Shown piece after piece: positions 4,260 through 25,662 of a stretch of DNA of 64,000 nucleotides. Source of the stretch: an uncultured Clostridia bacterium. Its GTDB lineage: Bacteria > Bacillota > Clostridia > UBA1381 > UBA9506. A model generated the notes under the pieces. That model was not told the origin of the DNA and did no database searches. It saw only the letters and a list, made by a program, of their open reading frames with translations. Numbering within the stretch: position 1 is the first letter of the stretch; every line of letters starts with the position of its first letter. The DNA is taken from positions 1 through 64,000 of the forward strand of contig CALYAO010000097.1 of the NCBI GenBank assembly GCA_944393605.1, read 5' to 3'. The position numbers were made by a program, and so were the translations under genes.

Positions 4260-4345
4260 TGTAAGATCCTCCTTTTTTCCGCCGGAAGCTCATGCTCCGG
4301 CCATTTCCCCACAGGGCCCCGCGGCGCCGTCCGTATCTTTCCCAT
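4256..4345 (-). CDS. Possible 29-residue leader peptide coupled to the next gene
   Basis: ATG at 4345 follows a GGGAGG site by seven bases and opens a 29-codon frame (begins MGKIRTAP, ends RRILQ). Its TGA overlaps the GTG start of the 756-aa gene by four bases (GTGA). The peptide is basic and has no recognisable domain. The overlap would allow translational coupling. The frame may be chance in GC-rich DNA, and a hairpin (CCGGAGC with GCTTCCGG) occupies its 3' half. Confidence 0.3.
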   Translation of the reverse strand: MGKIRTAPRGPVGKWPEHELPAEKRRILQ

Positions 4346-4367
4346 GGCGCCGCCTCCCTGTTTTTCG

Positions 4368-8183: not shown

Positions 8184-8199
8184 AGGCGTTACCCCCCTT

Positions 8200-9483: not shown

Positions 9484-9494
9484 GTTCGCTCCTC

Positions 9495-12140
9495 CTATCG
9501 ATAAATGATGACGTCCCGGGTATTGGTATAGTTGATCCGTACAAAGACGGTGTCGTCCTTTTCAATATCGTCCGCTGTCACTTTTTTGACGCTCTGCGTC
9601 TTGCTGTCAACCAGATACACATTGGCGGCGGAGATGGGCACATTTCGCTTGCCCTTGATGTCCTGGATGTTCTCGCTGCAGCTAATGATCATGTTGCTTT
9701 TAAACTTATTGGTCACCGTTCCAAAGCCAGCATAGAACTCCGCGTAGACGTTGTTTTCGGTGACGGTGCCCGTCGGGAGCATCTTCTCGTACCGCGGTGC
9801 ATCCTTGACATTTTGGTGAATCACGCGCAGATACCGCATTTCCCCTTTTGCATTCAGCGCATATTGGATGATATCCCCTTGCTTGAGATCCCCAACCCGG
9901 ATGACTTTTCCGCTGTCATCGGTATAGGACAGATCGTCCGAATAGGCCAGCACCTCCGTCGCCGCACCGTTATACTGCCCATACACCTTATAGCTCTCTG
10001 TATCTTGGGACACAGCCCGGGTAATGCGGTCTACCACCATGATGGAAGAGGAGTAAGAGATATTTGCCGCGTCGCCGCCGCCCGCCTCCGCGCTCAGCAG
10101 GACCACCTTGATTTTAAACTCCTCCGAGATATCATATAACTCCACGTTGTACTCCTGATCCTGTACAAAGAAGGAGCTTCCGTTGTAAACGTTGTAATCG
10201 TCCTCCGTTGCCGCAGGGTCGTTGGGCACGTAGAACACCATGGTGTTATTGTCCACCATATACCGGCTGGCAAACATCTTGAGGTTGCCGCCCCGGTATT
10301 TAATGGGAACACCGCCTGAGGAATAGTCCAGCGAAAAATGGAGGTTGTCATATCCCTCATAGTTGGTCACCGCACTGTAGTCCACATAGGTCTCCAGCTT
10401 CTTGAGCTCGCCTTCCCCATTGAGGGAAAACCGGTACAGCTCGTTTTTGATCAGGGCATTTTCCACATCTTCCCGTTCCGCCGCTTTGGACATGGTCTTG
10501 GACGCCCCGTTTAAGGTGACACGGTCGGCCAGATTATAGACCTGGATCCCATCTTTGGTAAAGAATTTGACCATCAAAACGGGATCAATGCTGCTGCCCG
10601 ACTCCCCAACGTCGCACAGCACCGCATACTCCATGCCGTCGCTTGCACCCACCTCACAGTCCGCAATCCTGCCCGCAGCGTCCAGCGACGCCGTGATGGT
10701 CTCACCCACGCTGGGCAAGTATGCATCGGGCAGCGCCGTATAGCTGCTGGCAAAGGTGTATTCCACGCCGTCCACCGTGATGCTTTCATAGCCGCCGTAT
10801 GTGCCGCGTTCTTCCACAAACCCGCTGATCTTCCGGGTGGAGACCACAATGCTCACATAGGAGCCGTCCTTGCTCTCCTGCGCAGTCAAAATGCTGCCCT
10901 GGCTTATGTCGGCCAGCGCGACGGCATTTGCGTTTTCATCCCGAATCAGGATATCCCGCTTCCCGTTCTGGTCATCCAGCTCCAGCCGTCTGCCGTATTT
11001 GTCCTGCACCACGCCCGAATAGGCGCTGACGCTCTCCACAACATAATTCACCGTCTCATTGACGTATACCACGTCAAACTGGCTGTCTCCCGTCGTATCC
11101 ACCAGCTTGAGGTACCCTTCCTCAATGCGGAAGGTATCCGCCGTGAAGCCGGGGTCATATTTCCCGTTGTAGATCACCGCCGCTTCCTCGTCGATATCAA
11201 AGCGTTCGCTGGTCTGCCGTTCCCCCGTGATGGCATAGATGGTAAGCATGCCAAACTGCGGATTATCGCCGTCAATGTCGGGCGCCTCAATGATGCGGAC
11301 ATGGTTCTTGCTTTCGGGCGCCTCAATATACACCAGCGTATCGGTATCCGCTTTGTCATCCCGCCGCACATAAGCACGTACGGAGTATCCCAAGTACACG
11401 TCGGCATTTTTGCCCTGTGCCTCAATGATCTGTCCGTCGATTTCAATCTGTTCCGTCTTCAGGCCCGCCGCCCCCGAAAGAGAGGTATACCGGTTGGCCG
11501 TCACAACACCTTCATAGGTGTAGATCTTCAAATACTCGGTGAGCGGCGTCCTGTCTTGGTAGCTCACATACTCCGCCTGCTCCCCATAGGACACCTGGAT
11601 GAGCAGCGGGGTGTCCGCCGCATTGCGCAGCATCTGATATACGCCGCCCGCCGTGAGCGCAGATGACGTATCCACCTTGTCTAAAATGCCCGCACGCATC
11701 GCCGTGGTGAGGTAATCACTGTCCGTTCCGCCCATGCTGTTTGCCCGCACCTGGTACCCCAGCAGATTCACCAGCGCGCGGACCGCTTCGTTTAGTGTCA
11801 CGGCGTCGTCGGGCAGGAATTTATCCGCGGTATACCCCGCCATCAGGCCAAAGGCCACCGCATTGCCAATCCCTTTCGCATGCGGATGGTCTGCGGGCAC
11901 GTCTGAAAACTGCCCTGCGCCAACATCCATGGATGCACCGCGCAGCGCCGCCACCATGGAGGCAAATTCTCCGCGCGTGACCGTTGCATCCTCGGGCTTT
12001 GCCTCGGATAGTATTCCAATTTCTGCCAAAAATCGCGCCGCTTCTAGCGCACTGTCCGCCGCATGGGCTGTCACCGTCACAAGCGCCGTAACACCAAGCA
12101 ACAGCACCGTTAGCAAGGCCGCCATTGTTTTCTTTATCAC
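9495..12140 (-). CDS. Large SLH-domain surface protein
   Basis: 881 aa with a signal peptide (MIKKTMAALL, ending TAHA). N-terminal SLH repeats cover about residues 30-185 (FSDVPADHPHAKGI and GYTADKFLPDD blocks). The remaining ~700 residues are acidic and beta-rich with repeated short modules of the form 'YNGKYD...VYVNETVNY'. No enzyme motif is recognised. It is encoded only 11 bases from the binding-protein gene. The likely role is an S-layer-like scaffold or glycan-binding protein that docks substrate near the transporter. The SLH call is firm; the function of the long C-terminal part is unknown. Confidence 0.8.
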   Translation of the reverse strand: MIKKTMAALLTVLLLGVTALVTVTAHAADSALEAARFLAEIGILSEAKPEDATVTRGEFASMVAALRGASMDVGAGQFSDVPADHPHAKGIGNAVAFGLMAGYTADKFLPDDAVTLNEAVRALVNLLGYQVRANSMGGTDSDYLTTAMRAGILDKVDTSSALTAGGVYQMLRNAADTPLLIQVSYGEQAEYVSYQDRTPLTEYLKIYTYEGVVTANRYTSLSGAAGLKTEQIEIDGQIIEAQGKNADVYLGYSVRAYVRRDDKADTDTLVYIEAPESKNHVRIIEAPDIDGDNPQFGMLTIYAITGERQTSERFDIDEEAAVIYNGKYDPGFTADTFRIEEGYLKLVDTTGDSQFDVVYVNETVNYVVESVSAYSGVVQDKYGRRLELDDQNGKRDILIRDENANAVALADISQGSILTAQESKDGSYVSIVVSTRKISGFVEERGTYGGYESITVDGVEYTFASSYTALPDAYLPSVGETITASLDAAGRIADCEVGASDGMEYAVLCDVGESGSSIDPVLMVKFFTKDGIQVYNLADRVTLNGASKTMSKAAEREDVENALIKNELYRFSLNGEGELKKLETYVDYSAVTNYEGYDNLHFSLDYSSGGVPIKYRGGNLKMFASRYMVDNNTMVFYVPNDPAATEDDYNVYNGSSFFVQDQEYNVELYDISEEFKIKVVLLSAEAGGGDAANISYSSSIMVVDRITRAVSQDTESYKVYGQYNGAATEVLAYSDDLSYTDDSGKVIRVGDLKQGDIIQYALNAKGEMRYLRVIHQNVKDAPRYEKMLPTGTVTENNVYAEFYAGFGTVTNKFKSNMIISCSENIQDIKGKRNVPISAANVYLVDSKTQSVKKVTADDIEKDDTVFVRINYTNTRDVIIYR

Positions 12141-12169: not shown

Positions 12170-13888
12170 CTATTGCGCGCTGTTGCCTGTCCCGCTTTCC
12201 ATAAACGCGCGATAGATCATGACCGCGGTTTCCGCGCGGGTTGCATGGGCCTGCGGTGCAAAGGTGCCGTCCCCCATGCCGCTCAGGATGCCAGCGGCCT
12301 GCATCGCCTGCACGCCGGGCAGCGCATAGGATGCAATCTGGTCGGCATCCGTAAATGACGCAGGCGCCGCGCTGGTATCCCATGTTACGCCGGCTGCCTG
12401 TGCGGCGCGGTAGAGGAAGGTGGCGGCGTCCTGCCGCGTCACCTGTTCCCCAATGCCAAACAGAGACTCTGTGACGCCCGTTGTGATGCCATGTTGATAG
12501 GCCGTCGCCACCGGGCCATAGTACCAAGCGTCCGCCGCGACATCTGCAAACGGAACCTCCGCTTCCCCCGTGAGGCCCGCTGCCAAAACAAGCATCTTTA
12601 AGAATTCCTCCCGCGTTACCAGGTCATTGGGCCGGAAGTTGCCCGAACCATCCCCCTGCAAAATTCCTTTTTTTGCCAGAATGGTCACGGCCTCCTCCGC
12701 CCATGCCACACCGAAAATAAAAGAAAAAACGGGTGCGTCGGGCTGGCTCGTGGGCTCTTCACCCGTAATGGTCATGCCGCCTGTGATGCTGCCACCGCCC
12801 CCGGTTGGCCGGCTGCCGCCCGAGGAGGAACCGCCCGATGGAGATCCACCGCCACCGCCTGGTCCGTCATCCGGCTCGTTTAATGCGGCAATGCGCGCAT
12901 CAAACGCGTCCTTGACTGCCGCCAAATTGGCAAAATCCTTGCCCGTCAGTCCCATCGCGACCTCATATGGGGTAAACCCATCGTAGTCCGCAGGCAGGGT
13001 GAGCCCAATTGCCGCCTGATACTTGGTCAGAATCTCATCCATTTGCTCCCGGCTGGCCTGGTTGATCAGCGCCGTCACGCCCGCATCTGTCAGCATTTCC
13101 GTAAGTGCCGCAACGCCCGCGGGCTCCGCCTCTTTTTTCTGCGCAAGGAACACGGGATACATTGCCTCGCCAAGCAGCGCCTCATCCAGTTCAATGCCCA
13201 GCACGGTCAGATGGGTGGCAAGTTCTGCTCCCAGCTCCTCCGCCGTCTGAATGGCGTTGAGCCGCCCCAGGGCTGTCGCTTTTTCCTCTGTGGCCAAAAT
13301 GCTGTCTAGGTCTGCAAACTTCCCGTCGGGCATCTCATCCCGCAGATACACAAACGCCCGGTCGATGGCCTCCCGGTTGGCCTCATACAGGTCGGAGAAC
13401 GCGAGGCCCAGCACGTTGTTTTTGGCTTTGTAGTCCGCCATAATTGCCGAGATGGTATCCGCCGTCGCTTCATTCATCTTGGTGAGCGCCGCTCCTGTCC
13501 GCACCTCATCCGAATAATACGCTGTCACCGACTGGGTATCTGCCAGGCTCGCCGCTCCGCTTCTGCTCACCTTGATGGTATAGGTCCCAGAAGGCGCGTC
13601 TAGCGGCAGCTCCACCACCTGGGTGAATGCCCCCGTGGCATCCGTCCGCACCATGCCCAGATAACTCACGGCATCCGCCGTTTCAGGAGAAATATCCTCC
13701 CAGGTCCTGCCTTCGGGGAGCACCAAGATCGTGACCTCCGCCTCCACCGGCATGCCCAGGTTCCCCGATACCGTAATAGTGCCGTCCCGGTGACGAACTG
13801 CCGTCTCTACAGAAAGCCCCTCCGCTGCGACACACAGCTGGCTCAGCAGCAGGCAGCATGCCACCAGCAAACCAATCCCCTTTTTCAT
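12170..13888 (-). CDS. Secreted protein with three C-terminal SLH repeats
   Basis: 572 aa from ATG 13888, chosen because GAGGTGAGAGG precedes it and a signal peptide (MKKGIGLLVACC) follows. An upstream in-frame ATG would overlap the permease gene and spoil the signal peptide. Residues 25-115 look like an Ig-like domain. Residues 120-330 are predicted helical (many Ala, Glu and Lys). A Gly/Ser/Pro-rich linker (about 335-380) leads to three SLH repeats (about 395-565; ILQGDGSGNFRPND, FADVAADAWYYGPV, ILSGMGDGTFAPQ). SLH repeats are C-terminal here but N-terminal in the next gene, so both ends of the anchoring range are represented. It lies between the permeases and the binding protein; a docking or scaffold role is inferred. 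Confidence 0.8.
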   Translation of the reverse strand: MKKGIGLLVACCLLLSQLCVAAEGLSVETAVRHRDGTITVSGNLGMPVEAEVTILVLPEGRTWEDISPETADAVSYLGMVRTDATGAFTQVVELPLDAPSGTYTIKVSRSGAASLADTQSVTAYYSDEVRTGAALTKMNEATADTISAIMADYKAKNNVLGLAFSDLYEANREAIDRAFVYLRDEMPDGKFADLDSILATEEKATALGRLNAIQTAEELGAELATHLTVLGIELDEALLGEAMYPVFLAQKKEAEPAGVAALTEMLTDAGVTALINQASREQMDEILTKYQAAIGLTLPADYDGFTPYEVAMGLTGKDFANLAAVKDAFDARIAALNEPDDGPGGGGGSPSGGSSSGGSRPTGGGGSITGGMTITGEEPTSQPDAPVFSFIFGVAWAEEAVTILAKKGILQGDGSGNFRPNDLVTREEFLKMLVLAAGLTGEAEVPFADVAADAWYYGPVATAYQHGITTGVTESLFGIGEQVTRQDAATFLYRAAQAAGVTWDTSAAPASFTDADQIASYALPGVQAMQAAGILSGMGDGTFAPQAHATRAETAVMIYRAFMESGTGNSAQ

Positions 13889-13902
13889 CCTCTCACCTCT
13901 CC

Positions 13903-14751
13903 CTATGATTTTACCGCGCCGCTCATCAGTCCGCCCATGATGTGGCGCTGCAGGATAAAATATACGACAAGCAGCGGGATGATGGACAGCGTCAGTCCGG
14001 CAAATAGTACATTCCACTGCGTTGTGAACTCACCCTTAAAGAAATATACGGCGAGCGGCACCGTCCGTGCCGCGGCACCCTGCAACAACAGCAGAGGATG
14101 CATAAAGTCGTTCCAGACATTGATGGAGTTCATGATCACCAACGTCACCACAATGGGCTTTAGCAGCGGGAAGATGATACGGAAAAACACTCCGATGGGG
14201 GAGCATCCGTCTATGACCGCCGCCTCCTCCAGCGCCTGCGGGATGGTACTGATAAAATTGCGGATGAGGAACACGCCCGTCGCAGTTCCGCCCGCAATCA
14301 TAACCCCGATGAGCCCTTGAAAGGTGTTGCTAAGGTGCAGCGCCTTGAGCCATACCACCAGGGGAACCAGCGTGACCTGCGGCGGGATGACCAGGCCGGC
14401 CAGAAACATGTAGAAAACACAGCTAAAGAAGATCTTTCCCCGCTTGGCCCGCACCACCGCATAGCCTGCCATGCTGTATATCATGGTGCCGATGGCCACT
14501 GTGCAGACTGTCAGGAAGGTGGAATTGCCCAACACCCGCAGGTAGTTCATGCTGTCCCAAGCCTCGGCATAGTTGGCAAACACAAATTCGGAGGGGATGG
14601 TGAGCGGTGATGTCACGATCTCTGCATCCGATTTGAAGGACATCAGCAGAATCATAATCATGGGGTAAATGATAATGACGGCAAAGAGCGTCATGATGAT
14701 CTGAATCACAATTTGGGTTTTTTCACGTTTTAAGGTCATTGTTTCATCCAT
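13903..14751 (-). CDS. Sugar ABC transporter permease (MalG-like)
   Basis: 282 aa with six predicted membrane helices. The EAA loop reads EEAAVIDGCSPIGVF followed by FRIIFPLLKP, the docking site for the ATPase in CUT1 permeases. Length and order (second permease) match MalG/UgpE-type subunits. It lies 24 bp downstream of the partner permease and 14 bp upstream of an SLH protein gene. It should form the inner-membrane channel with the 307-aa permease and receive substrate from the lipoprotein encoded at 8200-9483. Confidence 0.93.
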   Translation of the reverse strand: MDETMTLKREKTQIVIQIIMTLFAVIIIYPMIMILLMSFKSDAEIVTSPLTIPSEFVFANYAEAWDSMNYLRVLGNSTFLTVCTVAIGTMIYSMAGYAVVRAKRGKIFFSCVFYMFLAGLVIPPQVTLVPLVVWLKALHLSNTFQGLIGVMIAGGTATGVFLIRNFISTIPQALEEAAVIDGCSPIGVFFRIIFPLLKPIVVTLVIMNSINVWNDFMHPLLLLQGAAARTVPLAVYFFKGEFTTQWNVLFAGLTLSIIPLLVVYFILQRHIMGGLMSGAVKS

Positions 14752-14775
14752 TCCTTTCGCTTGATGGTTGCGGCG

Positions 14776-15699
14776 TCAAACCTGCGTTTCCCGCTTTTTC
14801 AGGAAGCCATACACAAACACGTTGATCACCAGAATGATGAAGAACAACGCGATGGAGATGGCAGCGGCATAGCCATACAGATTTTCATTCATGTTGCGGA
14901 CAATATAGGTCGCAATGGTTTCAGTCGCATTGCCCGGTCCGCCTTCTGTCATAGCGAAGATGATGTCAAAGACCTTAAACGTGCCGGCGATGGAGGTGAT
15001 GATATTGATGGTGGTTGCCGGCGCCAGCAGCGGAAACACCACATATCGAAACCGCTTCCAGCCCACCGCTCCGTCGATCTCGGCAGCCTCTAGCACATCA
15101 CTCGAGATGCTCTGAAGGTTGGCCAGATAAATGAGCGCGGAATATCCGATAAACCGCCATACATGCGCCACAATTACGCACCCAAGCGCATAGTCGGGAT
15201 TGCCCAGCCAGGTCTGCGCGAGCCCGCCCAAACCAACTGCACGAAGCAAGGTGTTAATCAGACCGTTGGTATCAAAGATATATGTCCATATATATGCTGT
15301 GACAACCGCGTTGATGAGTACCGGCGCAAATATCATGGTACGGATTGCCCCCCGCATCCGGATGCGGGCGTTGAGCCCAAGCGCCGTAAGGAGGCTCAGC
15401 AGATTTTGCAGCAGGGAAACCACAATGGTGAACACAAATGTATTGGTAAAGCTTGCCCGGAATACCTGGTCCTGCAGCATGGTCTGGTAGTTTTTCAGGC
15501 CCACCATGTCAAAGTCCAGACTAATGCCGTTGTAATTTGTGAAGCTAATGAAAAAACTGCTGATGCTGGGAATAAAAAAGAAGATGAGATAGACGATCAA
15601 TAGCGGCAAAGCCATGATCAGGTATGCATAAAAATTCTCAAAATTGAGCCGTCTCTTCCGTAAATCACGTTTTGGATTCATACTGATTTGTCGTTCCAT
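14776..15699 (-). CDS. Sugar ABC transporter permease (MalF/UgpA-like), first gene of operon
   Basis: 307 aa, six predicted membrane helices after a basic N-terminus. The EAA motif LEAAEIDGAVGWKRF followed by RYVVFPLLAP is clear. It opens the operon that runs to the left edge of the window. Its start lies about 60 bases downstream of a good extended -10 promoter and a GGAGG-like ribosome site. An internal ATG (MNPKRDL) seven codons in is a less likely start. The regulatory region upstream carries the tandem TTGC repeats shared with two other operons. Confidence 0.93.
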   Translation of the reverse strand: MERQISMNPKRDLRKRRLNFENFYAYLIMALPLLIVYLIFFFIPSISSFFISFTNYNGISLDFDMVGLKNYQTMLQDQVFRASFTNTFVFTIVVSLLQNLLSLLTALGLNARIRMRGAIRTMIFAPVLINAVVTAYIWTYIFDTNGLINTLLRAVGLGGLAQTWLGNPDYALGCVIVAHVWRFIGYSALIYLANLQSISSDVLEAAEIDGAVGWKRFRYVVFPLLAPATTINIITSIAGTFKVFDIIFAMTEGGPGNATETIATYIVRNMNENLYGYAAAISIALFFIILVINVFVYGFLKKRETQV

Positions 15700-15904: not shown

Positions 15905-16777
15905 CTATAGATAGGTCTCCGCCAGCGCATCCAGCGTCCGCATGTCCCTTTCAGACAGCGCATGGAAGGGCCTGCGGCAGGTGCCACAGTCAATGCCTTG
16001 CCGCGCGAGCAGATACTTGGTACCTTGAAACACACCCATCTGCACCAGCGCACCAATGATCTCATTGGCTTCCCGCTGAAGCCGCTGTGCTTCGGTGAGC
16101 CGCCCCGCCAGGAAGCACTCCCGGATGCGCACAAACCGGCCTCCCATGAAGTTGTAGGTCGTGCCCACGGCACCATCCGCGCCCATGGTCAATCCCGCCA
16201 GAAACACCTCGTCATGCCCGTTGTATACCAAAAGAGCGGGGTCAGCCGCCTTCATGCGCTCCAGCCCAAACAGGTCCATGGACGTGTGCTTGACCCCCAC
16301 AACGTGTGGATTTTCCCGCAGGGATGCGATGTTTTCGGGCGTCAGCGTGATGCCCGACAGCGCCGGGAAATTGTACACAATCATGGGCAGCCCACACGCA
16401 TCGCAGATGGCGTTGTAGTGCGCCTGAATCTCAGGGAAGGAAAACTGATAGTAAAACGGGGAGATGGCAGACACCGCATCGACTCCCAGGCCGGCCGCAT
16501 GCACCGCCAGGCGGCATGCCTCGTCGGTTGCAATCGCACCCACATGGGAAATCACGGTACACCGCCCGCGGACGGTCTTTGCCACCGTCTCCAAAATAGC
16601 GCGCCGCTCCTCCTCGGTGAGCAAAAACGCCTCCCCCGTGCTCCCGCCCACATAGAAGCCCGTGACGCCGTCTTCCATGTTTTTTTCCACCAGCGCGGCG
16701 AGCACGTCATGGTTCACGCGGCCCTCCCCGTCAAAGGGGGTCACCAGCGCCGTAAAAATACCTGTCAGGTCGTGCAT
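15905..16777 (-). CDS. nanA: N-acetylneuraminate lyase
   Basis: 290 aa, the usual length. Cleaves N-acetylneuraminate to pyruvate and N-acetylmannosamine through a Schiff base. Visible signatures: GGSTGE (44-49), catalytic Tyr135 in VYNFPALSG, Schiff-base Lys163 in GVKHTS, and YNGHDE (185-190). The last block plus GTTYNFMG (205-212) matches residues that bind the sialic acid tail in NanA and argues against dihydrodipicolinate synthase. The position equivalent to E. coli Ser208 is Thr here, a mild change. It is the last gene of a seven-gene operon. No nanE or nanK follows, so the ManNAc route must lie elsewhere or differ. A related 2-keto-3-deoxy-sugar-acid aldolase role is the main alternative. 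Confidence 0.85.
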   Translation of the reverse strand: MHDLTGIFTALVTPFDGEGRVNHDVLAALVEKNMEDGVTGFYVGGSTGEAFLLTEEERRAILETVAKTVRGRCTVISHVGAIATDEACRLAVHAAGLGVDAVSAISPFYYQFSFPEIQAHYNAICDACGLPMIVYNFPALSGITLTPENIASLRENPHVVGVKHTSMDLFGLERMKAADPALLVYNGHDEVFLAGLTMGADGAVGTTYNFMGGRFVRIRECFLAGRLTEAQRLQREANEIIGALVQMGVFQGTKYLLARQGIDCGTCRRPFHALSERDMRTLDALAETYL

Positions 16778-16798
16778 ATCATCCCTCTTTTCTCTGAT

Positions 16799-17737
16799 TT
16801 ACGAAACCACATTGACGGGTTTCCCCGCCAAAAATGCGGATAGATTGTCCACCGCGATGTCCATGAGCCGTGCACGCGCCTCCCGGGGCGCCCATGCGAT
16901 ATGGGGCGTCACAAAACAGTTCTTCGCCCCGATGAGGGGGCTGCCTGCCCGCGGCGGCTCCGTCTCCAGGACGTCCACGCCGGCGGCATATACCTTGCCG
17001 CTATGGAGCGCCGCCGCCAGGTCCGCTTCCCGCACCAGCGGGCCGCGGGAGGTATTGAGAAGAATGACGCCATCTTTCATGGCGGCGATGGTCTCCCGAT
17101 TGATGAGCCCCGTGTTCTCGGGCGTCAAGGGGCAGTGCAGGCTGATGACGTCCGACTGTGCCAACAGCACGTCCAGCGGGACGCATTCGGGCCCCTCGGC
17201 ATAGGGGTCGTATGCCAGCACCCGCATGCCAAATCCCCGTGCGGCCTTTGCCACTGCCTGGCCAATCCGGCCGTAGCCGATGATGCCCATGGTCTTGTCC
17301 GCCAGCTCCATTAAGGGGCGCTTCCAGTAGCAGAAGTCGGGACTCCTACCCCACTCCCCTGCCGCCACGCTTGCGGCATGTTCGCCCACGCCCGTGCAGA
17401 TCTCCAAGAGCAGCGCAAACACATGCTGCGCGACGGATGCGGTGCCGTAGGTGGGGATGTTGGTCACGGGGATGCCCCGTGCGCGGGCCGCCGCAACATC
17501 CACCACGTTGTACCCCGTCGCCAGCACGCCCACATACCGGATGGATGGGCATGCGGCAAAGACATCCGCCGGCAGGGGCGTCTTATTGGTGATGACCACC
17601 TCCGCATCCCCGATGCGGGCGATAACGTCGGGCGGGGACGTGCGGTCATGCACCGTGAGGTCTCCCAGGGCCGCAAACCCGTCCCAACTGAGGTCGCCGG
17701 GATTGAGCGTATAGCCGTCTAGCACCACGATCTTCAT
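16799..17737 (-). CDS. D-2-hydroxyacid dehydrogenase (glycerate/hydroxypyruvate type)
   Basis: 312 aa from ATG 17737, which overlaps the sialidase stop codon by four bases (ATGA); an in-frame ATG five codons earlier is ignored. NAD(P)-binding motif GYGRIGQ at 154-160. Catalytic Arg231 (NTSRG), Glu260 (LETEPP) and His279 (TPHIAW) are all present. It interconverts a 2-oxo acid and a D-2-hydroxy acid with NAD(P)H. Between a sialidase and a lyase that makes pyruvate, it could reduce pyruvate or a sugar-derived oxo acid. The substrate is not fixed by the sequence. Confidence 0.85.
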   Translation of the reverse strand: MKIVVLDGYTLNPGDLSWDGFAALGDLTVHDRTSPPDVIARIGDAEVVITNKTPLPADVFAACPSIRYVGVLATGYNVVDVAAARARGIPVTNIPTYGTASVAQHVFALLLEICTGVGEHAASVAAGEWGRSPDFCYWKRPLMELADKTMGIIGYGRIGQAVAKAARGFGMRVLAYDPYAEGPECVPLDVLLAQSDVISLHCPLTPENTGLINRETIAAMKDGVILLNTSRGPLVREADLAAALHSGKVYAAGVDVLETEPPRAGSPLIGAKNCFVTPHIAWAPREARARLMDIAVDNLSAFLAGKPVNVVS

Positions 17738-18792
17738 GCGTCCATCACCCACCCCAGCGAAAACCGGGCCAGCATGAGGCCCTCGTTGTCATATTGATCC
17801 CCGTCAATGCCGCCCTGCTCATACAGGCACAGGATATCCCCGTTGTCCGCCACCGCAAGGTCGGAATACCCCGAGATGCCCGGGTCGATGACCCGCCCGG
17901 CATTCCAGGTCTTGCAGTCGTCCGTGCTGGCCTTGATGCTGAGGTTTTTGCGGTCCTTGTGCACCTTCTGCCCGAAGTGTTCCCCGTCCAGCGTATGGGG
18001 GTTGGCGAACAAGATGACGTCTTTGCCCGGCACCCGCAGAATACTCCCCAGACATACGGGCTCCAGCAGGTCCTCATCAAAGACGGGCTCACTCCAGCCC
18101 GTCGCGCCGTCGGGGCTGACGGCAACCAGCCGCCGCCCGTTCTCCTCCCGGTGCTCGTTGCGGATGTTAAAGAGCACCCGCCCGTCCGACAGCTCCACCG
18201 CTCCCGTCTCACTGGGGTTGGTAAACCGCTCCGCGAGGATGTCCCCGCCCTGCCATGTCGCGCCGTTATCGTCCGAATAGATGGAGGACACGACAGAGGG
18301 ACGATGCCCCGAGAAGCCCGTCCCCGTGGACATCCAGACGGGCACCACCAGCCGCCCGCCTGAGAGCTGGATGGCGTGCCCCGGGCCCGTCGCGATGACC
18401 TTGTGCGCATACCGGTCCGAAAACCCGTCAAACACATAGGTGATGTCAGTGGGCGCCGAGAAGGTCTCACAGTCGTCATCCGAATACATGTAGTAGCAAG
18501 TGTCATAATTGCGGCAGTACAGGATGTGCACCCGGCCGTCCGCACCCGCGATGGCCACGAAGTTGTGGGCAGGGTGCCCGTTTTCGCTCTCGATGAGAAT
18601 GCGCAGGTCCTCAAACGTCCTGCCGTCATCCAGGCTCCGCCGCATGACGATGCAGCTGGGGTCCCAGTCGCCCCCCGTGCCCAGCCGGCCCTCCCCAAAG
18701 GCGAGCACCGCGCGTTTTGTCTTGAGCAAAATGGGGATGCGGAAATGGTAAAACCCATTGGTCCGCGCCTTGAACAGATATTGTTTTTCCAT
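17734..18792 (-). CDS. Sialidase-family (GH33) enzyme without signal peptide
   Basis: 352 aa from ATG 18792 with AGGAGGG just upstream; longer readings run into the previous gene. GH33 hallmarks: FRIP (17-20, first Arg of the triad), FGEGR, GGDWD (likely acid/base Asp), Asp boxes SLDDGRTF and SDDNGATW, GPGHAIQL-GGRLVVP, NPSETGAVEL, IRNEHR, and YSDL plus LYEQG near the C-terminus, the Tyr/Glu nucleophile pair. It starts MEKQYLFKAR with no signal peptide, lipobox or anchor, so it should act in the cytoplasm on an imported sialoside. This fits the neighbouring ABC importer. It is coupled to the dehydrogenase gene by a 4-bp overlap. Some GH33-like beta-propellers act on other sugars, so exo-alpha-sialidase is likely but unproven. 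Confidence 0.82.
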   Translation of the reverse strand: MEKQYLFKARTNGFYHFRIPILLKTKRAVLAFGEGRLGTGGDWDPSCIVMRRSLDDGRTFEDLRILIESENGHPAHNFVAIAGADGRVHILYCRNYDTCYYMYSDDDCETFSAPTDITYVFDGFSDRYAHKVIATGPGHAIQLSGGRLVVPVWMSTGTGFSGHRPSVVSSIYSDDNGATWQGGDILAERFTNPSETGAVELSDGRVLFNIRNEHREENGRRLVAVSPDGATGWSEPVFDEDLLEPVCLGSILRVPGKDVILFANPHTLDGEHFGQKVHKDRKNLSIKASTDDCKTWNAGRVIDPGISGYSDLAVADNGDILCLYEQGGIDGDQYDNEGLMLARFSLGWVMDA

Positions 18793-18802
18793 ATCTTCCC
18801 TC

Positions 18803-20200
18803 CTATTTTCGCGCGCCGCCCTGCTCGGACAGCTGCATTTCGTCATACACACATCCAGCCGCCGCCAGCGCCGCATGCAATGCCTGAATGGACACATCCG
18901 CAAACCCGCCGTCCTGCGCCAATGCAAGGGAAGCCGCGAGCCCTGCCGCGCTCCCCATGCCCATACAGGGCCCCATGACACGCACGGGCCCCAGCACGTC
19001 CCGCTCCACGCTGATGCACCGCCCCGCCACGATGAGGTTTGTGACCTCCCGGGGCAGCAAGCACCGGTAAGGAATGTGGGTATAGGTCGGTTTTGCCGCA
19101 TGCTCCAGCGGCTGGTGGCTGGGGCGCTTGGGGTCGGGCAGGTCCCAGCCATAGGAGGAGCATGCGATGCTGTCGGGGAACCGCGTCCCCGCCACCAGCT
19201 CGGCCGCCGTCAGCGTGTGCATCCCCACCAGCCGCCGCGTCTCCCGGATGCCGATGCGTTCCGCGATGCGGCGGATACGGGAATTTCCAAAACCTGGAAA
19301 GTATTCTTTGAGGATGTCAAACAGCTGCAGACACTCCTTTCGCCCGTCCACCATGCCCCGCGTCATGGAATCACCGTCCACACCATTTACCCCCACCTGC
19401 CGGATGGTGTTGATCATAAACACGTCGGGTTGGGTCAGCAGAACGCTGATGAAGATGTCATAGGGAAACGTCCAGATGCCCTCCTCCCGCAGGGACGCGA
19501 TGAGCCGGCGAAACCGCCGCTCGTCCTGCCCCCAGATATAGTCCGCCAGCGCCGCACCGTCCACGTGCTCCACCTGCATCTCAAGGGACGCCGCCGCCAT
19601 GAGGCCATCTTCCTCCCGGCCCACCGACATGGCGCATCCTGCCAGCGCCGCAACGTCGCCGTCCCCCGTGCAGTCTGCAAAAAGGGGCGCGGATAGGGCA
19701 AACAGGCCGCTTTTGTTGTGCAGGATGAGGTGGGTGATGCGCTCCGCTTCCCGTGCCACATCCACCACGCTGGTAAAGTAGCAAAGTGTCACGCCCGCCT
19801 CCATGCAAAGCGCTTCGAGCGTCACCTTCATGTGTTCCAGGTCAAAGGGCACCCCTTCCGCCAGGTTGGGGTACCACCCATGGGGATTCCTGTCCCGGTC
19901 GATGGCCGTGGGTTCAATGGCCCATCCGTTTGCCGCCATGCGCTTTGTGAGCTCCTCAAACAGGCCGCCCACGTTCTTCGCCTGCCCCACAGGCAGGTTC
20001 TTCCGCCCACCCAAAAGGTGCGTCACACCGCATGCCGTCGCGGTTCCGCCCAGGCATCCGCCCTGCTCGATGAGCGCCGTCCGAAGCCCCGCCCGGGCCG
20101 CCGACACCGCCGCCGCAACCCCCGTCATGCCGCCGCCGCATACGATAAAGTCATACTGTCCTGTGATCGGTACCGTTCGTTGAAAGGTCAGCGTATCCAT
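18803..20200 (-). CDS. FAD-dependent oxidoreductase (FAD_oxidored family)
   Basis: 465 aa. The N-terminal dinucleotide-binding fold reads DFIVCGGGMTGVAAA (17-31), then an acidic residue in ALIEQGG. GGTATACGVTHLLG and the later VAGRCISVERDVLG-VMGPCMGMG block are typical of the PF12831 group of sugar-associated oxidoreductases. No signal peptide is present. These enzymes often occur in carbohydrate clusters but few have known substrates. Here it lies 10 bases from the sialidase gene start. Oxidation of a sugar, sugar acid or polyol released by the cluster is inferred. Confidence 0.8.
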   Translation of the reverse strand: MDTLTFQRTVPITGQYDFIVCGGGMTGVAAAVSAARAGLRTALIEQGGCLGGTATACGVTHLLGGRKNLPVGQAKNVGGLFEELTKRMAANGWAIEPTAIDRDRNPHGWYPNLAEGVPFDLEHMKVTLEALCMEAGVTLCYFTSVVDVAREAERITHLILHNKSGLFALSAPLFADCTGDGDVAALAGCAMSVGREEDGLMAAASLEMQVEHVDGAALADYIWGQDERRFRRLIASLREEGIWTFPYDIFISVLLTQPDVFMINTIRQVGVNGVDGDSMTRGMVDGRKECLQLFDILKEYFPGFGNSRIRRIAERIGIRETRRLVGMHTLTAAELVAGTRFPDSIACSSYGWDLPDPKRPSHQPLEHAAKPTYTHIPYRCLLPREVTNLIVAGRCISVERDVLGPVRVMGPCMGMGSAAGLAASLALAQDGGFADVSIQALHAALAAAGCVYDEMQLSEQGGARK

Positions 20201-20212
20201 CCTCTCCTCCTG

Positions 20213-21307
20213 TCAGCCATACTGCCGTGCTTTTTCCAAAAAATAGAGATAGTCCGAAAGCGAGATGTCGGGCGGCGCCTGGTGATCCAATGCGATGATA
20301 TATCCACCGGATTTGGCAAAAGTGGGAAGCACGCGTTCCAGCTCCCGGTCTATGGCATCCCGGCCTTTTGCGAGCTCCCGCTTGTCAATCCCGCCGCGCA
20401 GCACCAGCCGGCTGCCATACTGTTCCCGAAGCGCCGTCACGTCCATCCCCGCCTGTACCTCAAACGGGAACATGCCGTCAATGCCGCATTCCAGCAGCAG
20501 GGGAATGAGCTCCCGCACATCCCCGTCTGAGTCCACACAGATGCCAAACAGAGAAGGATATGTGCGGACATGCTGCACCAACCGCTTATAGTATGGCATC
20601 AGAAATTCCCGAAACAGCGCGGGAGAGATCATCATCCCCGTGTTGCAGGACATGTCTTCCAAAATATAGAGCAGGTTGATATCCACCCGTTGCACAATCC
20701 GGTCCAACGCGGTCGTATTGAGCCTGAGCCAGTGCTCCATCATATCGTGCACCATGTCGGGATGGTCATAAAAGGCATAGTACATGTTGACATCCCCCAT
20801 GAGGTGCCACAAAACCCGGAACGGGCCCGCGATGATCTGCCCGACCGGATAGTCGTGGCCTCCGATGCCGCCCAGCTGCTGTGCCGTCTCTTCCAGCGCG
20901 GCATACCGCGATTCCTCCGCCGGATCCAGATATCTCCGAAAAGCCTCCCAGCTCTTCTCATCCGTCACGGGGAACGCCAGATACTCCGCGATGCTTTCGT
21001 TGATCTCATCCCTGCGTTTTTTCAGCGTTCTCCCATGGGCATCCCGCAGGATTTGATAGGTCGCATCCTCCTCCAAAACCTGTTCCTCCATGCGCGGAAA
21101 AAAGGGGCTGTAGCCGCAGGTGCCAAGATGCACGCCTGTGAATGCCACCCGGTCTTCCCCAAAAAAGTTGGTTTCCTGCCAATCCGCAGGCAGGCCCTCC
21201 GCGCGCCACCGCACAATGGTCTCGTCCCATGCGCCGAACGTGTGGATGGGCAGGCGGTCGGTTGGGGCAAATGCAAATGTGCGTCGAAAGCGTTCCAGCG
21301 TATTCAT
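20213..21307 (-). CDS. URO-D-like (uroporphyrinogen decarboxylase-fold) protein
   Basis: 364 aa with the URO-D/MtaA-type TIM barrel: an N-terminal RFRRTFAFAPTDRLPI block, a central GPFRVLWHLMGDVNMYYAFYDHPD region and a C-terminal GGIDKRELAKG motif. Heme genes are absent nearby, so heme synthesis is unlikely. Members of this superfamily in catabolic clusters include corrinoid methyltransferases and uncharacterised proteins. Translation is probably coupled to the RraA-like gene 21 bases away. A role in demethylation or another C1 step on a modified sugar is possible but not shown. Confidence 0.75.
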   Translation of the reverse strand: MNTLERFRRTFAFAPTDRLPIHTFGAWDETIVRWRAEGLPADWQETNFFGEDRVAFTGVHLGTCGYSPFFPRMEEQVLEEDATYQILRDAHGRTLKKRRDEINESIAEYLAFPVTDEKSWEAFRRYLDPAEESRYAALEETAQQLGGIGGHDYPVGQIIAGPFRVLWHLMGDVNMYYAFYDHPDMVHDMMEHWLRLNTTALDRIVQRVDINLLYILEDMSCNTGMMISPALFREFLMPYYKRLVQHVRTYPSLFGICVDSDGDVRELIPLLLECGIDGMFPFEVQAGMDVTALREQYGSRLVLRGGIDKRELAKGRDAIDRELERVLPTFAKSGGYIIALDHQAPPDISLSDYLYFLEKARQYG

Positions 21308-21328
21308 CCGGACTCTCCTCCCGTTCCT

Positions 21329-22072
21329 TTACCATTCGCCTTCCTTGCTGAATTTTGCGCGGGTGTTCTCATTAAACCGCGCACCCGCCTCGTTTAAGGC
21401 ATCCAAAATCTCCTGCTTGGACCTTCCGCTCGCGCTGCGTGCCGCGTCGATCACCGTCCTGCACTCGTTCTGGTCCATGAACACCGACGCCTCCAGCAGC
21501 CGGTCCTCGTCCTCGGGCGGGATGGCCAAAAAGCCATGTTTGTCCGCATGGATGAGCTGTCCGGGCTGGATCTTGCAGCCAAATACCTCCACCTCACAGC
21601 CCCACCGGACGGGCGTGCTGTGCGCATGCCCCACGCAGAAGCGGCGCGCGAGCGCATGGAAGCCGGCGTTGTTCATCTCGTCCACATCCCGGATGGCGCC
21701 GTCGCAGATGGTGCCCACGCACCCCAGTGCGCGGTGGGCATTGCTGTTGACCTCCCCCCAGAACGCACCAATCACATTGGGCTTGTCAAGGTCCTGCACC
21801 ACCACAATCTTGGGCCCTTCCACGCTTGCAACATAGGCGCGGTATTCCGCCCAGGCGTTGGGGTTGCGCTTGGGGTGGTCGGGGTTGGAGGGTTCAAACA
21901 CCACCGTCACCGCGCGGCCCACCATGCTGCCCATTTGGGGCATAAAATCCGTCACCGCTTCGGTGTTAAAATAGTCCTTGGTGATATCGTGCTTGGTGAT
22001 GGCCTCCCACCCGTTGTAGATGGTGGGCGTGTTCCACCGTTTGAGCTGTAAGATTTCACTGTGATTCATCAT
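21329..22072 (-). CDS. RraA-like aldolase/decarboxylase family protein
   Basis: 247 aa. The core matches the RraA/HMG-aldolase fold: GAFWGEVNSNAHRALG, GTICDGAIRDVDEM (metal- and substrate-binding Arg-Asp pair) and a C-terminal IHADKHGFLAIP block. Family members cleave 4-hydroxy-2-oxo acids or decarboxylate oxaloacetate; others regulate RNase E, which does not fit here. It lies second in the operon, six bases from the SGNH gene. A pyruvate-forming step on a sugar-acid intermediate would suit the neighbours, but the substrate is unknown. Confidence 0.8.
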   Translation of the reverse strand: MMNHSEILQLKRWNTPTIYNGWEAITKHDITKDYFNTEAVTDFMPQMGSMVGRAVTVVFEPSNPDHPKRNPNAWAEYRAYVASVEGPKIVVVQDLDKPNVIGAFWGEVNSNAHRALGCVGTICDGAIRDVDEMNNAGFHALARRFCVGHAHSTPVRWGCEVEVFGCKIQPGQLIHADKHGFLAIPPEDEDRLLEASVFMDQNECRTVIDAARSASGRSKQEILDALNEAGARFNENTRAKFSKEGEW

Positions 22073-22078
22073 GCTTTT

Positions 22079-23080
22079 CTACCTCCTGCCATTGTCATAG
22101 ATTTTCCGCAAAATATCTGAGAGATACGCCGCGATGCGCCGGGCGCCCAGATCATTGGGGTGAACGCGGTCCAACGTGCAGTCGTCTCTGCCCGCCGTGC
22201 CAAACAGCTGCTCCCCGTCCACAAAATAGACGTTTTTGTCTCCGCGGGCCACCGCATCCGCATAGGTCTGTCGGATGACGGCGCGCCGCGCAACGCTGTA
22301 TGGAACATCCTCATCAAAGTCGGGCCGGGACAGCATCACCACCGGGGTGTCGGGCTGCTGCGCCCGGAAGGCTTCGAAAAACGGCGCATGCGTCTCGGCC
22401 AGATGGGACAGGCTCTCGGCGTTGTGGTCATAGTCATACACAAACGCCCCCGCCGAAATGCCGCCAAAGATATGGCCCAGCTCGGCACCCCCCTTGGCGC
22501 CCCCCGCAAACCCAAAGTTGTACACGGGGCAGTCCAACAGCCGCCCCAGCACCGCCGCATACCCCATGCCGGGCCGGGATACGCCGTACCCCTGCGTGAT
22601 GGAGGAACCATACAGCATGAGCCGCGGCCGCAAAAAGGCCGGCGCAGGCGTGACCGCCCCATCCAGCTCCAGTGCAAGCTCCCGCACCTCGCCATACACC
22701 GGCAGGTTGATGGTCACTTCCTTGGTGCCGGGCGGCAGGGCGACGCAGGTGTCCATCTCGTGCCCCACGATATCCTCCGCGAGCAGGATCGCATGAAACC
22801 GCTTGGCCGCCCCGCTCCCTACGTACAGGTCAAAGCCCGCCGCCGTCGCGGGCGGCATGCGGAAAATGGGGTCCACCGCCTCGGTCCGCGCCCGAAAGCG
22901 CAGCGCTTTGCTGTCTGTCACAAACCGAATCTGCCCGCCTACGGGGTGCCGCAAAAGCGTTTGCAGCTTTGGGGGAAACTGCGCGATCTCGTCCTCCCGC
23001 CACCGCAGGAATTTGCGTTCTTCCGCGAAAAATGCGAGCCCTTCCACATATTCCGGATGCTCCCGAACGTCCAGCCACAT
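22079..23080 (-). CDS. SGNH-family hydrolase, probable sugar O-acetylesterase, first gene of operon
   Basis: 333 aa from ATG 23080 (MWLDVREH), with AGGGAGGG upstream; a longer frame would start inside the promoter. An N-terminal beta-sandwich (about 1-150) precedes an SGNH domain: LYGSSITQG carries the nucleophile Ser, NFGFAGG the Gly/Asn blocks and LDRVHPND the Asp-x-x-His pair. No signal peptide. In a sialic acid operon, removal of O-acetyl groups from imported sialosides is the natural guess (NanS-like role). It leads the seven-gene operon that ends with nanA. Confidence 0.8.
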   Translation of the reverse strand: MWLDVREHPEYVEGLAFFAEERKFLRWREDEIAQFPPKLQTLLRHPVGGQIRFVTDSKALRFRARTEAVDPIFRMPPATAAGFDLYVGSGAAKRFHAILLAEDIVGHEMDTCVALPPGTKEVTINLPVYGEVRELALELDGAVTPAPAFLRPRLMLYGSSITQGYGVSRPGMGYAAVLGRLLDCPVYNFGFAGGAKGGAELGHIFGGISAGAFVYDYDHNAESLSHLAETHAPFFEAFRAQQPDTPVVMLSRPDFDEDVPYSVARRAVIRQTYADAVARGDKNVYFVDGEQLFGTAGRDDCTLDRVHPNDLGARRIAAYLSDILRKIYDNGRR

Positions 23081-23116
23081 AGGCTTCCCTCCCTTTTTTC
23101 TAGTGCTCCATGGTAC

Positions 23117-23145
23117 AGTGTAGCACCATTTTTCCCGGCTGGGAA
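23117..23145 (-). promoter_or_regulatory. Promoter of the SGNH-nanA operon
   Basis: Minus strand: TTCCCA (23140-23145), 17-bp spacer, TACACT (23117-23122). Both boxes match consensus at 4/6, so activation is likely needed. An inverted repeat TTCCC/GGGAA overlaps the -35 box. Confidence 0.5.
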
Positions 23146-23153
23146 TGGGCCTT

Positions 23154-23188
23154 CGTTGCGTCTCATGGTTGCTATTGTTGCGTCTGGC
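23154..23188 (-). promoter_or_regulatory. Tandem direct-repeat operator, AraC type (copy 2)
   Basis: Plus-strand GTTGCGTCT occurs at 23155-23163 and again at 23177-23185, exactly 22 bp apart. The distal copy lies in CTATTGTTGCG, identical to copy 1. The distance from the proximal TTGC to the -10 box (34 bp) is also the same as in copy 1. Confidence 0.55.
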
Positions 23189-23248
23189 ACCCAACGCATA
23201 ACAGCATGCCCCAGCTCATATATTGAAAGCAGAAATGGAGGGGGCAGC

Positions 23249-23413
23249 ATGGGCAGAAAGCGGCAAAGGCCGGTGGTGGTACATCGGGACAGAGACGGCA
23301 CATCCCTCAACTGGGATCGCAAGACCGTGTGGGAGCAGTTTGAAAAGGCCATTCAGGCAGCGGTGTCCCACGGGCAGGTGCCGCCTGTGCCGCCCCGCAA
23401 GCAGGATGGGTAA
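23249..23413 (+). CDS. Small basic protein coupled to the serine recombinase
   Basis: 54 aa from ATG 23249 with GGAGGGGG upstream. It begins MGRKRQRPVVVHRD and is strongly basic at the N-terminus. Its end overlaps a candidate start (ATG 23406) of the recombinase. No family is recognised. The good ribosome site and overlap favour a real gene, perhaps a recombination directionality or DNA-binding accessory protein. That role is a guess. Confidence 0.5.
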   Translation: MGRKRQRPVVVHRDRDGTSLNWDRKTVWEQFEKAIQAAVSHGQVPPVPPRKQDG

Positions 23414-25052
23414 AGGGGGAAGGGCATTGACAGAGCATCATGTCGCCGCGCTGTACTGCCGGCTGTCCAAAGAGGACCAGGACCTGAGGCAGCAGGAGGA
23501 GAGCGAAAGCATCCAGAACCAAAAAAATATGCTGACGGCCTATGCGAAGGCACATGGCTGGGAGATCTACCAAATCTATGCAGATGAGGACTACTCGGGC
23601 GCGGACGCCAGCCGCCCCGCCTTTACGCGCATGCTCTCCGACGCCGCAGCGGGCCGGTTTGACATCGTTCTGTGTAAGACACAGTCCCGTTTCAGCCGGG
23701 ATATGGCGGTCATTGAGGAATACCTCCATGACCGCTTTTTGGAGTGGGGCATTCGCTTTGTGAGCGTGGTGGACAACGCGGACACCGCGGTCCGGGGCAA
23801 CAAAAAAGCCCGTCAGATCAACGGGCTCATCAACGAATGGTTCCTAGAGGACACCTCCGACAACATCCGGTCGGTGTTTTATAACAAGATGCAGCAGGGG
23901 GAATACCTTGCCGCGTTCCCACCTTATGGATACCAAAAGGATCCCACACAAAAAAATCACCTCATCGTCGACCCCGGCCCCGCCGCCGTCGTCCGGCAGA
24001 TATTTGCTTGGCACGCCGCAGGGTATGGCGCAGCGCGCATCTGCCAGATGCTAAATGAGGCCGGCGTCCCGACGCCCCGCAAGCGGCAGGAACAAGCCGG
24101 CCTGCGCAAGACCGTGCGCTACCGGGAGGGCGACCCGGGCCGGTGGATTCCCACCACCGTCGGGGATATTCTGCACAACCGGGTGTATTGCGGCGACGTC
24201 GTGCAGCACCGCACCGAGAAGGTGAGCTATAAGAACAAGCACGTCCGCCGCGTGGCAGAAGACGAGTGGATCGCCGTCCCCGGCATGCATGAGGCCATCA
24301 TCCCGCGCGCACAGTTTGAGGCAACGCAGGCGGCCATGGCAGGGCGGCGGCATGCCACCCAAACGGGGCAGGTCAGCCCGCTGGCAGGCAAGGTCTTCTG
24401 CCACTTCTGCGGGCGGCCCATGAGCCGCACCTCCTCCCGCTCCGCGGGCGGCGCCATCCACTACTTCCGCTGCCGGGATAAATATGCCTATGCGAAAGGC
24501 AAACAGTGCCCGGTGGGCTTTGTGCGGGAGGAGGACATCATCGCCGCGGTCATGGAGCCGCTGCTGGATGTGTTGGGCGGCCGATGCGCCGTATCGAAAC
24601 ACATCGCATCCCTCCTCCAAAGCCACCTGCCCCCACCTGAGACCCGTTGGCGCCAAGCACAAGCGGCGGCGCTTACAGCCCAAATCGAGCGGCTCCAAAA
24701 GGCGATTCGGGACAGCTATGTGGATAAGGCATCGGGCCTCATCACCCCCGCACAGTTTGCGGCCTTTGGAGCCGATTTCGAGCAGCAGATCGCGGCATGC
24801 CAGCGGCAGCTTGCGGCCTGTGAGGCCGCATCGCCGGAACCGGCAGACGCACCGGACACGCTGGAGGCCGCGTGTCAGTTTTTGGAGGGGGATGCCTGCC
24901 TGCGCGCCGTACTGGGCGGCATGGTGGACAGAATCGTCTATGGCAGACCCGACGGCGTCACGGGGCGCCCCATGCTGGAAATCATCTGGGGATGGGAAAA
25001 TCCGATTGTGGGTTTTAGAGCAAACCACAGATGTGGAACCGGTTCCGTTTAA
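23406..25052 (+). CDS. Large serine recombinase (integrase)
   Basis: Up to 548 aa from ATG 23406; TTG 23427, behind GGGGGAAGG, is an alternative giving 541 aa. Resolvase domain: YCRLS with nucleophile Ser21, then DEDYSGADASRPAF and the FSRD block. A recombinase domain (about 165-290; DILHNRVYCGD) is followed by a zinc-ribbon (FCHFCGRPMSR then RCRDKYAY, KQCP) and a C-terminal coiled coil (about 415-480). Such enzymes insert and excise phages, transposons and 'skin'-type elements. The last ~12 codons run into a gene lacking its 5' end, so the recombinase gene abuts an attachment junction. It is transcribed toward the junction, opposite to the catabolic operons on its left. Confidence 0.93.
   Translation: MGKGGRALTEHHVAALYCRLSKEDQDLRQQEESESIQNQKNMLTAYAKAHGWEIYQIYADEDYSGADASRPAFTRMLSDAAAGRFDIVLCKTQSRFSRDMAVIEEYLHDRFLEWGIRFVSVVDNADTAVRGNKKARQINGLINEWFLEDTSDNIRSVFYNKMQQGEYLAAFPPYGYQKDPTQKNHLIVDPGPAAVVRQIFAWHAAGYGAARICQMLNEAGVPTPRKRQEQAGLRKTVRYREGDPGRWIPTTVGDILHNRVYCGDVVQHRTEKVSYKNKHVRRVAEDEWIAVPGMHEAIIPRAQFEATQAAMAGRRHATQTGQVSPLAGKVFCHFCGRPMSRTSSRSAGGAIHYFRCRDKYAYAKGKQCPVGFVREEDIIAAVMEPLLDVLGGRCAVSKHIASLLQSHLPPPETRWRQAQAAALTAQIERLQKAIRDSYVDKASGLITPAQFAAFGADFEQQIAACQRQLAACEAASPEPADAPDTLEAACQFLEGDACLRAVLGGMVDRIVYGRPDGVTGRPMLEIIWGWENPIVGFRANHRCGTGSV
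25000..25045. other. Putative right attachment junction (attR) of an integrated element
   Basis: The recombinase reading frame and the truncated downstream frame overlap here. In the downstream frame, residues LEQTTDVEPVPF lead straight into a well-formed domain, while codons before about 25008 read as recombinase out of frame. There is no start codon with a ribosome site. The core is probably within GGTTTTAGAGCAAACC. The matching left junction is not in this window. Confidence 0.5.
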
Positions 25053-25662
25053 CAAAGGATATTTTACGGTTGACCTCAAGTTCTTCTTCAAGATCACGCT
25101 GGACGTGTTCCTCGGCGTCGGGCGTCCCTGCCAGGTGGAAGGTCTCGCCACGTTCGACAAGAAGGTCATCCTCTTTGGCTCCGAAGGCAATGCCAAGGTA
25201 TTCGAGTCCAAATATACATATGACAGCTTTGACCAGCAGCTCTGGCGCAAGACCAACATGCCGAAAGCCGTCGTGGAGGTTGTCGACCCGATCTGCCTGT
25301 CCGCGAAGCTCGTGGACATCAAAGACAAATGCTGCAGCTGCGACGACGAGGTGGATTTCTCCTCGGTGCCCGAGTGCGTATGCCGCGTCTTTGACGACGC
25401 GCTGGTCATGGGCGGCGAGCGCAAGCGCGTGTTTGTCTCCATCGGCTTGTTCTCCATCGTCAAGATCGAGCGCAACGTACAGCTGCTCATCCCGTCCTAC
25501 GACTTCTGCGTGCCGCAGAAGGAGTGCATCGCGAGCACGGACGACAATCCCTGCGAACTGTTCGAGAAGATCAAGTTCCCGCTGGATGAGTTTTTCCCGC
25601 CCGCAAAAGAGGACTGCACATTTGACACCCTCTCCGACCTGCGGAAGAGCTGCTGCGATTAA
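25022..25662 (+). pseudogene. 5'-truncated conserved cysteine-rich protein gene, interrupted by the element
   Basis: About 213 codons survive, reading TTDVEPVPFNKGYFTVDLK onward to SCCD. The product has several Cys pairs (KCCSC, VPECVC, SYDFC, KECIA) and no signal or membrane segment. I recall a Clostridia family of about 230-300 aa with this exact core preceded by a 60-100-residue N-terminal part; its function is not known to me. That part is absent here: no ATG exists before 25258 in frame and no ribosome site precedes the one GTG (25037). A terminator follows the stop. Insertion of a serine-recombinase element in the gene explains this best. Excision could restore the gene if the other half sits at the left junction. 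Confidence 0.65.

Follow-up and report, generated by a model that had tools for sequence, protein, structure and literature searches.

A large serine recombinase element carrying metabolic cargo splits a putative late sporulation gene that is a recurrent insertion target in Clostridia

Analysis of a window of 64,000 nucleotides (the whole stretch of DNA studied here, which is the first 64 kb of the 128-kb contig C97) revealed a gene encoding a large serine recombinase (LSR) at the junction between a block of surface, transport, and catabolic genes and a truncated conserved gene. The host genome is a draft of 97 contigs and 2.5 Mb that is approximately 95% complete. Because the window begins where C97 begins, the left end of the element lies off C97, and it was located on contig C62 of the same genome (stretch L034). 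The following features were identified.

Window 1 to 25027: right-hand part of the element (about 25 kb), delimited by the junction cores and the presumed abutment of C62 and C97
Window 1 to 1914, minus strand: first gene of the window, encoding the N-terminal 638 amino acids of a large protein (C terminus missing), in register with the paralog at 4368 to 8183
Window 1989 to 12140, minus strand: Ig-like and SLH surface proteins, a paralogous large surface protein (4368 to 8183), a solute-binding protein (8200 to 9483), and an SLH protein (9495 to 12140) (Pfam Big_5, SLH, SBP_bac_8)
Window 12170 to 15699, minus strand: SLH protein (12170 to 14017) and two ABC permeases (13903 to 14751 and 14776 to 15699) (Pfam SLH, BPD_transp_1)
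Window 15905 to 23194, minus strand: DHDPS-family aldolase, 2-hydroxyacid dehydrogenase, FAD oxidoreductase, URO-D family protein, RraA-like protein, and GDSL esterase (Pfam)
Window 23198 to 23224, plus strand: candidate sigma-E-type promoter of the recombinase operon, ATA-N16-CATATATT (pattern match only)
Window 23249 to 23413, plus strand: 54-amino-acid open reading frame (ORF) directly upstream of the LSR gene, candidate recombination directionality factor by position
Window 23427 to 25052, plus strand: LSR (Pfam Resolvase, Recombinase, Zn-ribbon; clade B of the LSR tree)
Window 25028 to 25036, plus strand: attR core CAGATGTGG (9 bp)
Window 25028 to 25662, plus strand: 3' part of the split gene, about 211 codons, by alignment to its family
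L034 9830 to 10132 (C62): 5' part of the split gene with promoter and start
L034 10124 to 10132: attL core CAGATGTGG, the second copy of the core
L034 10124 to 15372 (C62): left-hand part of the element (about 5.2 kb), holding attL, a BNR sialidase gene, and a two-component system
L034 14466 to 15371: last gene of C62, encoding the C-terminal 301 amino acids of the same large protein (N terminus missing)

A sequence-only reading of this DNA had placed a serine recombinase at the junction of an element that truncates a conserved gene. The recombinase is genuine, as it carries Resolvase, Recombinase, and Zn-ribbon domains. Its gene probably starts with TTG at 23427 and stops at 25052. The frame lacks a stop codon ahead of the core; it crosses the core and ends 5 to 6 codons beyond it inside the host gene (window 24990 to 25052). 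In the excised circle, the LSR frame would continue into the sequence from L034 10124 onward, antisense to the sialidase gene, for approximately 290 further codons, and the resulting longer recombinase might have an altered activity. The closest solved structure to the LSR is YokA/SprA, the SPbeta integrase; XisF, the fdxN recombinase, was a weak match below the cutoff.

The site-B elements (see below) of five relatives from another family carry a conserved ORF of 43 to 45 amino acids directly upstream of the LSR gene, and a short ORF likewise lies just upstream of the site-G LSRs. The 54-amino-acid ORF of the window did not significantly match a profile of the 43- to 45-amino-acid ORFs, so its assignment as a putative directionality factor is based on position and pattern. 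The sigma-E-type pattern is expected about 0.04 times in an upstream stretch of 330 bp (1.57 times across 37 such stretches), and either pattern occurred upstream of 9 of 37 LSRs versus 3.3 expected. Since this enrichment is weak, sigma-E-type promoters were set aside as a general feature of these LSRs, and the promoter is kept as a candidate for the window only.

The cargo comprises sialidase, S-layer-anchored surface, transport, and catabolic genes. The operons to the left of the recombinase had been suspected to be cargo, and the genes next to the 5' part on C62 continue the same gene set. A Pfam scan of the main ORFs of the element detected neither phage structural or replication genes nor relaxase or conjugation genes. 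Elements inserted elsewhere in the same gene carry glucosamine-6-phosphate isomerase-family and amidohydrolase genes (nagB- and nagA-like), a purine-type permease with a phosphoribosyltransferase, a MatE transporter, or polysaccharide synthesis or redox genes.

The frame at 25022 to 25662 has no proper start and aligns to residues 69 to 280 of a family with a length of approximately 285 residues. It was thus correctly described as truncated: the window holds the last 211 or so residues, and the N-terminal 70 or so are missing. The family does not normally begin at this point, and relatives have the whole gene, which is full length in nearly all other searched genomes of the host's own family. 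The missing part contains EAVCIHTDKIYDSCKDKDC and ends in EIIWVF, directly before DVEPV. Searching the host's own genome with it yielded a single match besides the window, at C62 9940 to 10134. There, a frame with an ATG at 9907 spans 9907 to 10134 and is preceded by a ribosome site and a promoter. Past IIWVFSDV, C62 continues into foreign sequence and a strong hairpin (−30 kcal/mol, z −6). This hairpin, with T-runs on both strands, lies at L034 10140 to 10190, just inside the left end of the element, and might act as an insulator between the host gene and the cargo operon.

The core CAGATGTGG closes the 5' part on C62 and opens the 3' part in the window. The attL site reads ...TTTGGGTGTTCT-CAGATGTGG-CACAAAACAAACCC and the attR site ...GGTTTTAGAGCAAACCA-CAGATGTGG-AACCGGTTCCG. 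As anticipated, a copy of a shared core accompanies the 5' part beyond the left edge of the window; the core itself lies at 25028 to 25036, just to the right of GGTTTTAGAGCAAACC, near which it had been expected. Joining the halves in frame at the core gives the family consensus WVFSDVEPVPFNKG (joined sequence, EIIWVFSDVEPVPFNKGYF) and rebuilds the gene as proposed, with a score of 537 bits against the family profile. The rejoined attB site is TGGGTGTTCTCAGATGTGGAACCGG, and the reconstructed attP site is GCAAACCACAGATGTGGCACAAAAC. The attP site has a 12-bp palindrome, CCACA-GA-TGTGG, around a GA center; the symmetry of the whole site is marginal (P of about 0.02) and was set aside as proof of the site. 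Three hallmarks of skin- and gin-type elements are found here: the core is directly repeated at both ends of an insertion within a coding region, removal of the element restores the full-length reading frame, and the element encodes an LSR at its right junction. The element is integrated at codons 70 to 73, approximately, of a conserved uncharacterized gene.

Analysis of the contig ends indicated the size of the element. The 301-amino-acid part at the end of C62 and the 638-amino-acid part at the start of the window share a 7-bp in-frame overlap, CACAAGA. Both parts align to the paralog at 4368 to 8183, with approximately the spacing that direct joining predicts. On the basis of this overlap and alignment register, C62 and C97 most likely abut inside one gene, and the element would then measure about 30,269 bp (30.3 kb) from core to core. 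The two paralogous large surface-type proteins lie close together in the cargo, and this repeat may have caused the assembly break.

The recurrence of the gene as a multisite target was absent from the sequence-only reading and is added here. In a comparison set of one genome per species, we tallied a split copy of the gene in about 27 of the 71 genomes of the order with a match; a few of these cases, e.g., G057, may be plain contig ends. As a control, recA was broken in 4 of 77 genomes, in each case at a contig end. The breaks fall at no fewer than five positions, near codons 33 (site A), 70 (site B, occupied in the window), 97 (site C), 155 (site D), and 240 (site G), and an LSR lies close to most of them. 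One genome, G024 (L042, L043), is split at residues 150 to 174, approximately, well inside both contigs, and no LSR was found within the examined stretches. In most of the 33 half-pairs examined, the two halves have a short core in common, and joining them there gives the family consensus in frame; the automatically chosen core is uncertain for G032 at site B and for a few of the site-A pairs.

An assembly artefact, in which the gene was cut by contig ends or chimeric joins, would agree with the location of the two halves on separate contigs (C62 and C97) of a 97-contig draft. However, both breaks are internal to contigs and show foreign sequence with a matching core, and the same site is occupied in other genomes with a homologous LSR. 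As recA is broken at contig ends only, the control rules out this explanation, whose probability we consider negligible.

Phylogenetic analysis of 38 LSRs placed those of sites A, B, D, and G and those of a separate spoIVA site each in one fully supported clade, with site C represented by a single row. The window LSR belongs to clade B and shares no more than 49% identity with its relatives there. Across the class, distinct LSR lineages occupy different, fixed codons of this docking gene. On contig C23 of G041 (L134, L135, L036), the gene pieces lie in order, parted by three elements (about 38, 7, and 5 kb in size), and joining at the core of each element restores the reading frame of the gene. 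Two or more elements also occupy the gene in G034, G032, G026, G063, and possibly G067. Site-D elements of only about 1.3 and 2.3 kb were observed in G144 and G209 (L174, L175); they encode a short serine recombinase of approximately 290 amino acids and one or two further genes, and the shared gene appears GAF-like by eye.

The spoIVA gene itself is split at about residue 403 in G196, G130, G095, and G228 (L186, L188, L189, L192) and also in G156. In the four cases examined, the LSRs form a clade of their own, and the cargo in G196 includes a GH53-dockerin gene. A search of IMG/VR found neither an excised circle nor an empty site and confirmed no relatives of the LSR; a phage-labelled fecal contig (L200) with an LSR stretch 47% identical was rejected because it lacks the split gene.

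Searches of Pfam, NCBIfam, PDB sequences, and Foldseek with the split gene gave no convincing match. The AlphaFold model of its protein is strand rich with a disordered end (mean pLDDT of 72), and comparison of this model with solved folds gave no convincing structural match. For the promoter, we took the sigma-K consensus to be AC-N15..17-CATAnnnT. A pattern of this type is present upstream of the gene in 76 of 80 genomes, versus 2.7 expected from shuffles, and is retained in 26 of 30 split copies. SpoIVA is present in 61 of 64 genomes with the gene versus 57 of 92 without it (raw counts from a class-wide sample, in which relatedness is ignored). The host has SpoIVA, and its SigK scores above the curated cutoff and is encoded by a gene in one piece. 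The promoter type suggests that the split gene is a late mother-cell gene, and its product is predicted to be a late spore-surface protein.

Composite proteins assembled from split copies score similarly to intact ones (median scores of 447 versus 458, P = 0.20, with a profile constructed from sequences of the host's own family), and middle pieces of just 43 to 61 codons between two elements are still open. Since composites score like intact proteins, it can be argued that the gene is still in use, although a recent insertion could also leave the halves intact. These data bear on the alternative that an ordinary integrative element has inactivated a dispensable gene, the halves of which decay without programmed excision. 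Such inactivation would fit the few genomes of the order that lack an intact gene and an evidence base made up of metagenome-assembled sequences; the conserved composites, the open middle pieces, and the retained sigma-K-type promoters argue against it, and we consider it unlikely.

The best interpretation is programmed excision in the mother cell like that of skin or gin; it is favored because of the sigma-K-type promoter and the presence of SigK and SpoIVA in the host. Together with the conservation of the composites, which is about that of unsplit copies, these features strengthen the skin analogy drawn earlier. Excision might instead be random or condition dependent in vegetative cells, resulting in phase variation of the cargo or the gene. 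The metabolic nature of the cargo is in line with this view, as are the possible effect of the circle-form LSR extension on activity and the finding that the yin element was excised at all culture time points (PMC10747680). However, given the sigma-K-type promoter of the split gene and its co-occurrence with SpoIVA, there would be no obvious benefit in rejoining the gene in vegetative cells, and excision unconnected with sporulation appears highly improbable.

Both junctions show that the LSR recombined attB in the gene with attP of the element across CAGATGTGG; integration probably requires the LSR alone. The anatomy shows that, in the assembled state, the gene is split and the sugar cargo carried. 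Under programmed mother-cell excision, the LSR would remove the element in the mother cell as the host sporulates, probably aided by a small directionality factor (candidate, the 54-amino-acid ORF, whose expression is perhaps driven by sigma-E). The gene would thereby be rejoined in frame before its transcription by sigma-K, and the forespore, by analogy with skin and gin, would keep the integrated copy. Taken as a whole, the explanation of a non-phage LSR element of about 30.3 kb residing in a sporulation-type gene and excised on schedule in the mother cell is regarded as probable; we infer the timing, the directionality factor, and the role of the gene. With moderate confidence, we further propose that one sigma-K-type gene serves as a conserved docking gene for LSR elements with metabolic cargo throughout Clostridia, with at least five positions, one LSR lineage per position, and up to three, perhaps more, elements at once. 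Several mother-cell excisions would then be needed to produce one spore protein, while the germ line would carry the sugar genes.

Programmed excision is known for a handful of sporulation genes, namely, sigK, spsM, gerE, spoVFB, and yabG, and mostly involves prophage-like elements. A literature search, with most subscription journals and preprints outside its scope, found no report of the present gene or of spoIVA as such a target. Here, an unnamed gene, present in split form in more than one-third of the genomes of the order with a match, hosts multiple LSR lineages whose elements carry metabolic cargo. If excision occurs as proposed, it would be a common route for these Clostridia to carry accessory metabolism, the gene would point to a spore protein overlooked by annotation, and orthologous sets of LSRs with matched att sites would be available for study.

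Elements in the cyanobacterial genes nifD, fdxN, and hupL are similarly excised from genes whose use is confined to a terminal cell, the heterocyst. They differ in cell type and genes, and several elements may share one gene in the present case. The skin elements of Bacillus subtilis and Clostridioides difficile are also LSR elements that split a mother-cell gene and restore its frame upon removal; however, skin is prophage derived and targets sigK, which is in one piece in the present host. In C. difficile, a small directionality factor is expressed under sigma-E and SpoIIID (PMC5025042). The SPbeta prophage in spsM likewise provides LSR-driven rejoining of a spore-surface gene with the directionality factor SprB (PMC4191935), and its integrase is the closest solved structure noted above. 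SPbeta is an active phage, whereas no phage genes were recognized in the window element. The yin element in yabG of Clostridium botulinum shares the insertion of an LSR element in a conserved clostridial sporulation gene and a small candidate directionality factor (PMC10747680), but it is prophage-like and was described in one strain, whereas the present target is occupied in many species at several sites. The gin element of 28.6 kb in gerE of Bacillus cereus ATCC10987, with three recombinases, a 9-bp core, and no phage genes (PMC5595907), resembles the window element in its size of approximately 30 kb, lack of phage genes, serine recombinase, and 9-bp core. Gin splits a small mother-cell gene that is rejoined in sporulation, and the gene split here is of sigma-K type with a presumed rejoining in sporulation. 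The two differ in that gin has three recombinases and targets gerE, whereas one LSR was found in the element described here, which has sugar-use cargo and an unnamed multisite target.
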